Origin: Myxococcota bacterium
GTDB taxonomy: Bacteria; Myxococcota_A; UBA9160; UBA4427
Direction: 5' to 3'
Assembly: GCA_029243605.1 (NCBI GenBank)
Contig: JAQWRT010000027.1
Location: 62,001-126,000 of the forward strand
DNA length: 64,000 nucleotides
Shown: piece after piece, positions 19,167 through 24,160 of the stretch
How the letters are laid out: every line of letters begins with the position of its first letter
Numbering within the stretch: position 1 is the stretch's first letter
Translations under genes and position numbers: made by a program
The notes under the pieces: model-generated
Database searches by the model: none
Told to the model about the DNA's origin: nothing
What the model saw: only the letters and a program-made list of their open reading frames with translations

Positions 19167-19306
19167 CATGGAGCCAGCATAGGAAGCGAGTCGCACCTCG
19201 TCGATTTGCGAGGTCTTGTCGCGTCTCAGCGAATTGCCCCTGGGATTCGGTTACACTGGGGACAAGCGATTGGGCAATGAGCATTGCGCAAGCCGGAGAC
19301 GACATT

Positions 19307-19750
19307 TTGAAAATCAGATGGTTCGTCGTTGGAATATGCCTACTGGCCTACACTCCCCTGGCCCAAACGGCAGAAGGTGAGTCCCCCAAGCCCCTGACAA
19401 TCGCGAAAGAACCCGGATCTAATTTCGACGCCTCAAATTTCGCGGCGGGTCAGGGGCGTGAGTTGGTGATTGCGAACTGCACGGCCTGCCATTCAGACAA
19501 GCTGGTGACGCAGAATCGATCCGACAGCCAGGGATGGCGCGAACTCATCAATTGGATGCAGAAGAAACAGGGTCTCTGGCCTCTGGATCCCAAAACCGAA
19601 GACGCCATCGTCGAATATCTAGCGACCTATTATGGTAGGCCCCAGGTCGCAGATGACACACGACGCCCTGCGCTTCCCGAACATTTAATGCCGCCGATCT
19701 CCTCATCGCCGCCCACACCCCCGTCCCCAGGGAGAAAAATCCGTGACTAA
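19307..19750 (+). CDS. exported monoheme cytochrome c, partner of the sulfite-oxidase-like enzyme
   Basis: About 147 residues. A signal peptide (WFVVGICLLAYTPLAQTA) precedes a small cytochrome c with heme motif CTACH and axial Met candidate in the helix WMQKKQGLWPL. A Pro-rich tail ends the protein. I prefer the TTG at 19307 because GGAG lies eight bases before it and it puts the signal at the N-terminus; ATG 19277 adds ten residues. It overlaps the next gene, a molybdopterin sulfite-oxidase homologue, by 8 bp. The pair matches the SorA/SorB or SorT/SorU layout in which the cytochrome takes electrons from sulfite oxidation in the periplasm. Confidence 0.8.
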   Translation: MKIRWFVVGICLLAYTPLAQTAEGESPKPLTIAKEPGSNFDASNFAAGQGRELVIANCTACHSDKLVTQNRSDSQGWRELINWMQKKQGLWPLDPKTEDAIVEYLATYYGRPQVADDTRRPALPEHLMPPISSSPPTPPSPGRKIRD

Positions 19751-21062
19751 AGAACACGACGAACGAGGAATTCACGACCTATACGAGGAAGACCCTCTTG
19801 CGGCGGACGAGAAGCTTTGGGGACGGCGCTCAGACCCCGTCACCCGGCGTGGATTCCTACACGGGGCAGGACTCACTGCCATGGGCGCGGTGCTTGGGCT
19901 AAATATTCCCTACGCACGCAATATGCCGGCCGGCCTGATCCCCGCGGCCTTGGCTGACACACCCGAAGGCTTCCGAATTCCAGGCAAGCACGAAGGACTC
20001 GTCGTCCTCAACGACCGGCCGCTCAATGCCGAGACTCCTGCCTACCTGCTCAACGATGACATCACGCCCAATGACCGACTCTTTGTCCGAAATAATGGAT
20101 TCCCCCCGAGCAACGTCGACGCATCTACCTGGACTCTCGACATCGGCGGCGAGTCCGTTCGCACGGCAAAACGCTTTACCCTCGAAGAACTGAAGTCTCG
20201 CTTTCCCAAGCAAACGTTGCAGCTACAACTCGAATGCGGAGGGAACGGTCGCTCAGAGTACCGACCGCGCGCCCGAGGCAACCAATGGAGCACAGGCGCG
20301 GTCGGTTGCCCTGAATGGACGGGCATTCGCCTGCGAGACGTTCTTGAAGAATGCGGAGTCCAGGACAGTGCCGTCTACATCGGTTACCAGGGCGCAGATC
20401 GTCATGCCAGCGGAGACCCCACCAAAAGCGCGATCTCCCGCGGAGTCCCCATGGCCAAGGCACTCGAGGACGAAACGTTGCTGGCCTTCTCGATCAACGG
20501 CGGCGAAATCCCAGCGCTTCATGGCGCTCCCCTTCGGCTCGTATGTGCGGGCTGGCCGGGTTCGACTTCAGGAAAATGGCTTACCCGCATCGATATCCGC
20601 GATCGAGTTCACGACGGAACAAAAATGACGGGAAAGGCCTATCGGGTCCCCTGCACTCCGGTGGCACCCGGTGAGGCCGTGGATGAATCTGAGATGTGCA
20701 TCATCGAGTCGATGCCGGTGAAATCCTTGATCACCTCGATTCGCTCGGGGACGGTTCATCCGGTGAATGAGCCGATTCGGGTAGGCGGTCACGCGTGGGC
20801 CGGCGACCTCGAAGTCCGTCAGGTCGAACTCTCGGGTGATTTCGGGCAAACGTGGTCCACTTGTGAACTCAGAGAACCTCCGAATCGACTCGCTTGGCAA
20901 CGCTTTGAAGGCGAACTGACTTTCCCCGTGGAGGGCTACTACGAGATATGGGCCCGGGCCACGGATCAAGCAGGCCGAATGCAACCCATGTTGGTGCCCG
21001 GGTGGAATCCCAAGGGCTACCTCAATAACGCTTGCCATCGCGTGGCTGTCCGGGTGGCCTGA
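19743..21062 (+). CDS. Tat-exported sulfite-oxidase-family molybdopterin enzyme
   Basis: 439 residues from GTG 19743 (AGGGAGA upstream). A twin-arginine signal is present (TRRGFLHGAGLTAMGAVLGL). The molybdopterin domain has the Mo-ligating Cys in LQLECGGNGRSEY and the motif ECGVQDSAVYIGYQGADRH; the Mo-Co dimerisation domain follows (HAWAGDLEVRQVELSGDFGQ to GYYEIWARATDQAGRMQP). Members oxidise sulfite to sulfate or act on related substrates. The adjacent cytochrome c supports a periplasmic sulfite dehydrogenase role. Substrate is inferred, since YedY-like and other sulfite-oxidase homologues share this fold. Confidence 0.85.
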   Translation: MTKEHDERGIHDLYEEDPLAADEKLWGRRSDPVTRRGFLHGAGLTAMGAVLGLNIPYARNMPAGLIPAALADTPEGFRIPGKHEGLVVLNDRPLNAETPAYLLNDDITPNDRLFVRNNGFPPSNVDASTWTLDIGGESVRTAKRFTLEELKSRFPKQTLQLQLECGGNGRSEYRPRARGNQWSTGAVGCPEWTGIRLRDVLEECGVQDSAVYIGYQGADRHASGDPTKSAISRGVPMAKALEDETLLAFSINGGEIPALHGAPLRLVCAGWPGSTSGKWLTRIDIRDRVHDGTKMTGKAYRVPCTPVAPGEAVDESEMCIIESMPVKSLITSIRSGTVHPVNEPIRVGGHAWAGDLEVRQVELSGDFGQTWSTCELREPPNRLAWQRFEGELTFPVEGYYEIWARATDQAGRMQPMLVPGWNPKGYLNNACHRVAVRVA

Positions 21063-21189: not shown

Positions 21190-22299
21190 TCAACGCGTTT
21201 GAAGTAGACGCAGGCAGAGGATCTTGGCGATATTGAGCATGAGATGGGCGGCACCCTGAGCGTCCGAATCGATCGCCTTACGGATAGTGCGCTCGCTCAA
21301 GCTGAGAATACGACAGGAGGTCGCAGCGTACATATCAGCCACCCGTGGCCGTTCAAGGAGGAAGGCCATGGCCCCGAAGACGTCGCCAGGGCCGAATACC
21401 CCCAGGAGCGCTCCCTCATCGCGAACCTCGACGTGGCCCTCGAGAAGCACGAACATATTCCGGGCGGTTCCGCCCTTCTTGATCACATGGTCGCCCGGCT
21501 CGCAGTGAATGATATTGCTCTTGTGGATCACACCCATAACTTCGTCATTCGTCAGGCCTTCAAGGGTCGAAATCTGATTTTCATTGAGATCTTCGAGCGA
21601 GTGGTTCACTTCACCCAGGTAGAGCCCTGAATCTACGAGTCGCTGGCTGACTACGTTGCCCTGGTCCGCGAGAAGCCTCTCTATGCACTCGGGGATCTTT
21701 TTTTCGTCGCCCCAATCTCGAGTAGTTTCCACGGATGGAGAGCCAATACGCCGGAGGTAGTCGATGTCCTCGACGACATTCACAATCGGGATGAGGTACC
21801 CCGAATCAGGGCTGCTGATGTTCTGTGCGGCAAAGGTCCGGCTGCCCTGGCTGACGTAGCGACTCAGCAGGTGAGGCTCGCACGCACCAAAAATCAGCTG
21901 GACGCGCTTTTCGCCGATAAAGGATTGTGATTTTTCTCCGAGTTCCCAAAAGATAGAACTCCCGCGCAGATCGGGCCTCACCATCCCCCGCTCCCCCACA
22001 GCCATCGCTTCACCGGGGATTTCGGCCAAAAAAGGCGCTAGCCGATAGTGGTCAACCAGCCGCTCTGTGAATGGAGCATCTCCTCCCCAGTTGAATCTCG
22101 AGGTGGCGACAACCTCCCCATCCACCGCGGCGTAGAAGATGCGCGCGCTTTCATCCTCGGGTTCGCAAAAGCGTCGGTTCGCGTGATCAGCGATTCCCCG
22201 GTAGCGCCCCATTTCTTCGACGTAGACGTCGTAGCGAAAGCGGTAGACCGCTTCCTTTTCTTCCTCGCTTTGGGCAAGGTGCGCTCCGTCTTGAATCAA
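21190..22299 (-). CDS. N-acyltransferase (FeeM/LuxI-like GNAT fold) fused to a cyclic-nucleotide-binding domain
   Basis: 369 residues. Residues about 10-200 resemble the GNAT-fold N-acyl amino acid synthase/autoinducer-synthase group: RFRYDVYVEEMGRY near the N-terminus, VATSRFNWGG, GERGMVRPDLRGSSIFWELG and SRYVSQGSRTFAAQN. Residues about 240-365 form a cNMP-binding beta-roll (HCEPGDHVIKKGGTARNMFV, LLEGHVEVRDEGALLGVFGP, GDVFGAMAFLLERPRVADMY). The phosphate-binding cassette shape is kept (FGAMAFLLERPRVA). No helix-turn-helix follows. The enzyme may be gated by cAMP or cGMP. Mycobacterial Pat also combines these domains, but in the opposite order and with a different GNAT. No synthase for a cyclic nucleotide is in the window. 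Confidence 0.75.
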   Translation of the reverse strand: MIQDGAHLAQSEEEKEAVYRFRYDVYVEEMGRYRGIADHANRRFCEPEDESARIFYAAVDGEVVATSRFNWGGDAPFTERLVDHYRLAPFLAEIPGEAMAVGERGMVRPDLRGSSIFWELGEKSQSFIGEKRVQLIFGACEPHLLSRYVSQGSRTFAAQNISSPDSGYLIPIVNVVEDIDYLRRIGSPSVETTRDWGDEKKIPECIERLLADQGNVVSQRLVDSGLYLGEVNHSLEDLNENQISTLEGLTNDEVMGVIHKSNIIHCEPGDHVIKKGGTARNMFVLLEGHVEVRDEGALLGVFGPGDVFGAMAFLLERPRVADMYAATSCRILSLSERTIRKAIDSDAQGAAHLMLNIAKILCLRLLQTR

Positions 22300-22503
22300 C
22301 GGAATCTCCTTAGTCGTTATCTCTGAAGGCCCTCAAGAATACCCAGAATCGTCTCAGCCGGATACGGAACCAGCGCGCCTTGAGGAGAAGGGCCCGACGA
22401 ATTGAAAGCTTCTTCGGCCAATGGGGCATCCTGTGGCGAAGACGTAGAAGCACCTTTTGTAGATTCGCCCAGGGCTGCGACTCGGAACAAAACGGAGACT
22501 CGG

Positions 22504-24160
22504 ATGCATATTCTCGTTTTAAGCGTGCTGGCTTTGCTCTCCCTGGGGTGTAGTGAGAATAACTCAGGTTCGGGCAATCAGGCTTGCACCAGCGAGAATA
22601 TCGAGACGACAATCGGCACCGTTTGCGGACGGATCGAGACCCCAACCGGCCTGGGCGGCTAGCGGCTGAGGTCTTTCTTGGCATTCCATTCGCCGAAACC
22701 ACGGCCGGGGAAAACCGGTGGCGACCCCCGATTCCCAAAGCGGAGTGGGCTGGGGTATTTCGCGCAGTTGAAAAATCGCCTGGGTGCCCGCAAGACGATT
22801 CATCGGAATTTGGCCTCGTAGAAGCGGAGACCAGCGAGGATTGCTTGACTGTCAATATTTGGCGCCCGCACGGAACCCCACCACCGTCGCCGCTCCCGGT
22901 CCTAGTGTGGGTCTACGGGGGGTCGTTCGATGCGGGCGCGAACTCAGTGCCTATCTACGACGGCGCATACATGGCCGCACAGCAGGACGTCGTCGTGGTG
23001 ACGCTCAACTATCGCGTCGGTGCCCTCGGTTTCCTTACTGGAATAGATGGCCTCGAAGGTAACTACGGCCTCAGAGACCAACAACTCGCGCTCCAATGGG
23101 TAAGCGACAACGCTGCCGCTTTCGGCGGCGACCCTAGTCGCGTCACTTTCTTCGGGCAGAGCGCCGGTGCCATATCCGTCGGGTTTCACGCACTCTCGAT
23201 TCCCTCGAGTAGGAATCCGAGTTTATTTCAAGCAATCATCATGGAGAGCAACCCGTTTGGCCTCCCGTTCAAGACAGAGAGTCAGGCATAGGAGACGCCG
23301 AGCTTCTTAGCAGAGAACTCGGCTGCGAGGGCGAACTCGACAAAGTCAACTGCATGCGCGAAGCGACGGCGCTTAGCGTCGTCACCGCTCAGGCAACCGT
23401 TTCAGCCGAGTTGAGAAGCATCTTAGGCGCGGACATCGCCGGGCTCTTGGTCTTCGCGCCAACGATTGATGGTGCTGGGGTTTTTGTTGAGCAGCAGCCC
23501 ATAGCCTCGGCGCAGAACGGCGGCGTCAACCTGCCAACCATTCTCGGCGCGAATGGGTCGGGAGGAATCCCTTTTACCTGGGGAGTAAGCGATCAGGGTG
23601 AAATTTCCGAGGACGCGTACGAAGCGATGCTGACTTTCTTTTTTGGCCTCACGAACGGAGCGCAGATCAAAGGTCTCTACTCCCCCCTACCCTGGACCAA
23701 CTACTTAACGCCGCTCTCAAATATCCTCACCGACTACCTCTTCGGGTGTTCGAACCAATTCGTCGCTCAGCAAACGACTTCAAGCCTCTACGCATACCGC
23801 TTTAACGCGACCGACATCAATGCCGTCCCATCAGTTTCAGCATGCACTGGCGAAGCCTGCCACGGCGACGAGGTCCCCTTCGTATTTCACAGCTTCCAAC
23901 AGCTTGGCATACAAAACGTCACTCCGGATGAGGACGCGCTTTCCAACACAATAATCGGCTACTGGAACTCGTTCGCGCGAGAACTGCCCCCCAACGGAGA
24001 TGCTCTTTTTCAATGGCCGGAGTTCACGGCAAGCGGTTTTCAATATCTGATTTTGGAAAACTCGGCCTCCACCACTCAAATCGACCCAATCCCCAACTGC
24101 AATTTCTGGGACGGCATTGGGTATGACCTCAGTACAGGGCCTCTGTCGCCGCAGCCCTGA
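22504..24160 (+). pseudogene. carboxylesterase type B lipoprotein with two frameshifts
   Basis: Three consecutive frames encode one alpha/beta-hydrolase. Part 1 (22504-22662) has a lipoprotein signal with lipobox LSLGC. After a shift near 22645, part 2 (to 23291) has FLGIPFAETTAGENRWRPP, EDCLTVNIWRP, the oxyanion segment VYGGSFDAG and the nucleophile elbow FFGQSAGAIS. After a shift near 23285, part 3 runs to 24160 and includes the His region CHGDEVPFVFH. The elbow is GQSAG instead of the usual GESAGG. Total length (~550 residues) fits the family. Two independent shifts favour a decayed gene, but sequence error is not excluded. Confidence 0.75.

Follow-up and report, generated by a model that had tools for sequence, protein, structure and literature searches.

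Within the window, by which we mean the whole stretch of 64,000 nucleotides analysed (C7:62001-126000 in G000, a myxococcotal draft genome of 4.44 Mb in 97 contigs), the gene under consideration occupies 21190-22299 on the minus strand, exactly the span given to it in the earlier note. It is a single open frame of 369 codons with no internal stops, which begins with TTG at 22299 and is preceded, 6 bases ahead of that codon, by AAGGAG (22306..22311, minus strand), a sequence resembling a ribosome-binding site. Its 369-aa product is a fusion in which a GNAT acyltransferase half of FeeM/LuxI-like type (residues 1-198; 21706..22299, minus strand) is followed by a linker (residues 199-244; 21568..21705, minus strand), modelled partly with low confidence (residues 214-249 are under pLDDT 50), and by a cyclic-nucleotide-binding (CNB) half with C-terminal helices (residues 245-369; 21193..21567, minus strand).

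Convergent with the fusion gene lies a molybdopterin oxidoreductase gene of sulfite-oxidase-like type (19743-21062, plus strand; PF00174, PF03404), which overlaps a gene for a haem-binding-type protein, the two together covering 19277-21062 (+); the haem-binding-type protein has a weak match to PF09098, slightly under the cut-off, and relatives of the two lie together near the fusion at L024, in another species of the genus. On the other side, and divergent, a carboxylesterase gene (22504-24160, plus strand; PF00135) is spread over three reading frames, with a lipoprotein-like start ending at 22662 and further pieces at 22584-23291 and 23354-24160, so that it is apparently broken, being either a pseudogene or the product of sequencing errors in the draft genome. 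No neighbours of the window gene are conserved across phyla, the only synteny being local and inside the genus, and the methyltransferase, class III cyclase and PF14518 genes found next to some of its relatives are all absent from its side; in this sense it is an orphan. The window genome has two class III cyclases and three CNB proteins.

The fusion of GNAT and CNB domains in one polypeptide, as proposed in the earlier note, is thus present as an intact frame, and the objection that it could be a one-off, or a frameshift between separate genes, fails. An origin by frameshift or misassembly is excluded by the full-length, single-frame homologues (40 to 89% identity) that occur in three phyla, and by the dN/dS of the window gene, which against L034, L035 and L038, the comparisons in which it is readable (more distant pairs being saturated), is 0.05-0.08 in both halves and denotes strong purifying selection. 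In a scan of named genomes the related loci numbered 14, spread over Myxococcota, Chloroflexota and Alphaproteobacteria with identities of 40-88%; among them the frame of L047 is broken and the middle of L044 is masked. Full-length fusions were found in 26 of 377 genomes of Myxococcota, in 24 of 385 of Alphaproteobacteria, and in 1 of 301 of Chloroflexota, this one being the query genome itself, to which the named-genome scan adds that of L039 as a second. In the window's own family the distribution is patchy, with a full-length match in 6 of the 30 genomes of the relatives search; G014 holds both halves with a masked stretch between them, and G004 a fragment only (L033).

The alignment used below comprises 61 full-length fusions: 6 from the window clade, 3 from near Myxococcota, 20 from wider Myxococcota, 30 from Alphaproteobacteria and 2 from Chloroflexota. 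Outside it stand the broken copies, namely L047 (frame), the G697 hit (stop), L077 (contig end), and L032 and L044 (a run of N in mid-gene), together with L076 and L078, whose N-terminal half has diverged, the G004 fragment L033, and L100, which is without the CNB half. The last is an unfused relative of 232 aa that matches FeeM at 42 bits. At L047 (2330-3465), in a Rhodospirillales draft genome, the fusion gene lies in two frames, through a frameshift or a sequence error.

Taken by itself, the window protein gives only a suggestive answer as to its first half: Acetyltransf_5 is matched at E 0.0034 and FeeM at E 0.0042, both under the Pfam cut-off (for FeeM, PF21926, 17.3 bits where the curated value is 27), and the best NCBIfam match of the enzyme half is the ornithine acyltransferase OlsB (E 4.9e-5), with 23.2 bits against a cut-off of 350 bits. 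The relatives are more explicit. Among 28 family members, FeeM is matched by 22 at E<=0.001 (best 6e-15), the OlsB model by 21 (best 1.9e-12) and Acetyltransf_5 (PF13444) by 18, and a profile built from the 28 N-terminal halves, when run against the PDB, reaches by sequence alone an acyl-homoserine-lactone (AHL) synthase, BjaI (E 1.9e-5). The AlphaFold model of the window protein has a mean pLDDT of 74, with the first 140 residues mostly at 80-95. When this model was compared with known structures by VIA-align, FeeM (2g0b) came first among the matches listed (Z 16.9, rmsd 2.5, 169 residues aligned), followed closely by the acetyltransferase SACOL1063 (Z 15.9), and the AHL synthases RpaI, BjaI, TofI and LasI lay at Z 14.4-15.0; in the E-value order of Foldseek, BjaI is first and FeeM is not among the 50 matches listed. 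The matches listed in these fold searches are largely GNATs and CNBs, and other families may match beyond them.

It is the FeeM matches of the relatives, together with the structural alignment to FeeM, that make the acyltransferase assignment firm, and the type of enzyme named in the earlier note is thereby upheld: the model of the first half has the GNAT fold of FeeM and LuxI. A shared GNAT fold does not by itself prove function, since a plain acetyltransferase such as SACOL1063 scores nearly as high. In the 61-fusion alignment, residues 102-113 (GERGMVRPDLRG; 21961..21996, minus strand), with R104, R112 and G113, form, by analogy with GNATs, the putative cofactor-loop region of this half.

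If the fusion is set beside the systems that it resembles, the likeness is in each case partial. FeeM, an N-acyl amino acid synthase, is like the first half in fold and through its profile in the relatives, but its chain has 184 residues and is without a CNB domain, and the window protein remains under its Pfam cut-off. With the AHL synthases the likeness is one of fold and of weak sequence similarity (BjaI being reached also by the sequence profile), and the CNB domain is an addition of the fusion; the OlsB model (L-ornithine N(alpha)-acyltransferase), with 256 positions, leaves no room for one. As far as the matches listed show, a CNB domain is absent from all three. In mycobacterial Pat (Rv0998, MtPatA), on the other hand, CNB and GNAT domains share one chain, and the concept of a nucleotide-gated acyl transfer is the same; the CNB domain of Pat comes first, however, at residues 12-142 according to the account in PMC4964394, and in the window protein it comes last, an inversion already pointed out in the earlier note, and the GNAT half of Pat is of a different kind. 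The coupling of CNB and GNAT was therefore already known, in reversed order, with control by cAMP shown for Pat in that account (PMC4964394). A search of open-licence papers found no report of a CNB domain joined to an acyltransferase of the FeeM or LuxI type, which does not prove absence, and the main text of a 2007 survey of CNB architectures (PMC2246266) contains no mention of acetyltransferase, acyltransferase or GNAT.

The second half is recognized directly, with PF00027 at residues 265-345 (E 9.6e-17, 61.2 bits, above the cut-off of 27.5) and CNB structures aligned by VIA-align at about Z 13, in a part of the AlphaFold model whose confidence is modest. The canonical form of the phosphate-binding cassette of CNB domains is given as FGE[LIV]AL..[PV]R (PMC2246266). 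The cassette of the window protein, at residues 309-322 (GAMAFLLERPRVAD; 21334..21375, minus strand), reads FGAMAFLLERPR and departs from the FGE...R pattern, in that the glutamate is replaced by alanine (A310), the arginine (R319) is kept, and the position that follows it is valine (V320) in place of threonine or serine. These are not peculiarities of one sequence: all six members of the window clade, which is a single branch with a support of 100/100, have alanine for the glutamate, which is present in 52 of the 55 fusions elsewhere; all six have the arginine, as do 52 of the 55 outside the clade; all six have valine after it, where most near relatives have threonine or serine; and the glycine positions are retained. 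In structures with bound cAMP, the cassette glutamate contacts the ribose.

Since the orphan gene offers no partners of its own, the function of the window protein has to be read from relatives that are distant (21-31% identity) and whose traits, we infer, would hold for it as well. In wider Myxococcota a class I SAM-methyltransferase gene adjoins 7 of the 20 fusions (six upstream, one downstream, at L082; by Pfam its identity was obtained at L084 and L087), and in 3 of the 20 (L088, L097 and the second gene of L085) the methyltransferase is a further C-terminal domain. In 3 of the same 20 (L085, L089, L091) a class III cyclase with a GAF domain is the 3′ neighbour on the same strand, where about 0.016 such neighbours would be expected by chance among 20, according to a simple density estimate in which the gene density was assumed; one family accounts for two of these cyclases, and the three count therefore as about two events. 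At L091 the genes of the methyltransferase, the fusion and the cyclase run into one another with a 4-base overlap at both junctions, that between the methyltransferase and the fusion being ATGA. A convergent cyclase beside two alphaproteobacterial fusions (L045, L127; P about 0.015) is weak evidence. Genes for heme-oxygenase-like iron enzymes of PF14518 adjoin 9 fusions from two well separated clades in two phyla (by Pfam at L083, L093, L096, L098, L106, L128 and L132; by clustering alone at L092 and L094), and one also adjoins the unfused L100. The diiron enzyme of the lipothrenin paper (PMC10616846) belongs, as far as that account goes, to a different class, and the paper was not used further. 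In a large alphaproteobacterial clade the fusion gene lies between a gene for a B12-dependent ribonucleotide reductase and a convergent aspS (10 loci per BLAST cluster, with the NCBIfam names confirmed only in L143), a placement that looks like an inherited position and not like function.

From all this we propose, with moderate confidence, that the fusion is an N-acyltransferase of the FeeM/AHL-synthase/OlsB kind, which acts on a small-molecule amine under the control of the ligand of its CNB domain. As we infer the sequence of events, acyl-ACP or acyl-CoA would donate a fatty-acyl group, which catalysis would transfer to an amino group on a small molecule rather than on a protein, the acceptor being probably an amino acid or a similar amine; the gating would be allosteric, with the ligand in the C-terminal CNB domain determining the activity of the acyltransferase; and in the relatives the acylated products would sometimes be further methylated or oxidised. 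Both an acylated small molecule and the acylation of proteins had been suggested in the earlier note, and it is the linked methyltransferase and PF14518 genes of the relatives that make the small molecule the likelier of the two. For the family as a whole, cAMP or cGMP is most likely the ligand, to judge from the canonical cassette of most members and from the cyclases that are operon partners in some of them. Control by cAMP or cGMP, which the note had also suggested, is in this way the most likely reading across the family, but weakened for the window clade by its altered pocket; a further point against simple control by cAMP comes from G284 (L084 6244-8193), a genome 97% complete with a methyltransferase-linked fusion and a canonical pocket, in which a cyclase search covering class III gave no matches.

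What the CNB half of the window clade does can then be read in more than one way. Purifying selection on it is as strong as on the enzyme half, which argues that it is in use, and since the cassette glutamate was lost while both halves remained under such selection, classical gating by cAMP is doubtful there; probably the ligand or the affinity has been altered, as the residues of the cassette suggest. For a change of ligand there is a precedent in trypanosomatid PKA, whose CNB domains are described as having switched from cAMP to nucleosides (PMC10959531). It is also possible that the role of the domain is structural or ligand-free. In this case the enzyme half would make an acylated amine and the CNB half would sense no nucleotide, being instead a structural, dimerising or protein-binding part, a reading to which the two replacements on a single branch, and the very example of a kinase whose CNB domains abandoned cAMP (PMC10959531), lend some weight, but which we regard as rather unlikely, because the phosphate-binding arginine and the glycine positions are kept, because selection on the two halves is equal, and because Epac, which is an exchange factor dependent on cAMP, has glutamine in the position of the same glutamate (Table 1 of PMC2246266), so that even the loss of cAMP binding in the window clade is not certain. 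As to the cyclases, it was considered whether their scarcity could support the loss of the glutamate, as the window-family genomes with the fusion have 1-5 class III cyclases, against 11-38 in the remaining fusion-bearing genomes of that comparison; the argument was dropped, since 23 members of the window family without a full fusion also have only 1-12, and it is therefore a family trait.

A second alternative would be a protein lysine acyltransferase controlled by a cyclic nucleotide, that is, a Pat with its domains reversed. A GNAT and a CNB domain in a single chain are indeed the recipe of Pat, whose regulation by cAMP is described (PMC4964394), and the NCBIfam model of Pat is matched by 15 of the 28 members; in the window protein, however, this match covers only residues 246-328, within the CNB half, aligned with positions 4-90 of the model, the enzyme half is nearest to FeeM and the AHL synthases, and the methyltransferase and PF14518 genes beside some relatives point to a metabolite, so that we consider such an activity quite improbable. 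Very unlikely is a membrane aminolipid enzyme, in which an OlsB-like first step of a pathway resembling that of ornithine lipids would have received a regulatory domain, for although the OlsB model matches the window protein and most members, and Acetyltransf_5 is described as common to aminolipid enzymes (PMC11631085), the window match is far under the equivalog cut-off and the O-acyltransferase of the second step is absent among the Pfam-annotated proteins of the neighbourhoods, a subset of the neighbours.

If we return to the proposed N-acyltransferase of small-molecule amines, a bolder form of it can be formulated, tentatively and as something doubtful in its entirety: the cyclase, the CNB-gated FeeM/LuxI-like acyltransferase and the SAM-methyltransferase would be one unit, in which the cyclic nucleotide would post-translationally switch the production of a diffusible N-acyl amino-acid signal, perhaps methyl-esterified, and the sensor of the window clade would have been re-tuned from plain cAMP to some other ligand. 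LuxI-type signal synthases are usually regarded as controlled through their expression. If the proposal is true, the fusion would be a direct post-translational wire from an intracellular cyclic nucleotide to the production of acylated metabolites, and this widespread fusion may tie a second messenger to such metabolites. The family would also supply candidates for the genes behind amino acid products that are acylated and, possibly, methylated; for the synthesis of N-acyl amino acid methyl esters, the authors of PMC11580390 state that earlier work gave no candidate genes. The window clade, for its part, would be a natural experiment, showing how selection can persist on a CNB pocket whose ligand is lost or replaced.

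A link with exosortases and surface sorting had also been suggested, and it was rejected. The PEP-CTERM/exosortase-associated acyltransferase TIGR03694 is a distant relative, matched by 12 of the 28 members (best 9.4e-11); the window protein reaches 11.9 bits against a cut-off of 111.95, and no match at E<=0.001 was found anywhere in the window genome, whose exosortases are on contigs other than that of the fusion. In a check of exosortases over 20 genomes, they were found in 11 of 11 further members of the window family, 5 of these without a full fusion, and in none of the 7 fusion-bearing genomes of Alphaproteobacteria and Chloroflexota.

Some variants of the architecture may be added. Chains of three domains, with acyltransferase, CNB and methyltransferase in succession, occur at L085 (15163-17193), L088 (6664-9090) and L097 (2255-4417), and the contig of L085 carries, together with its three-domain gene, a separate operon of three genes. 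At L130 and L133 a separate small CNB protein adjoins the fusion, and at L131 (1631-4189), in an alphaproteobacterium, two fusion genes stand in tandem.
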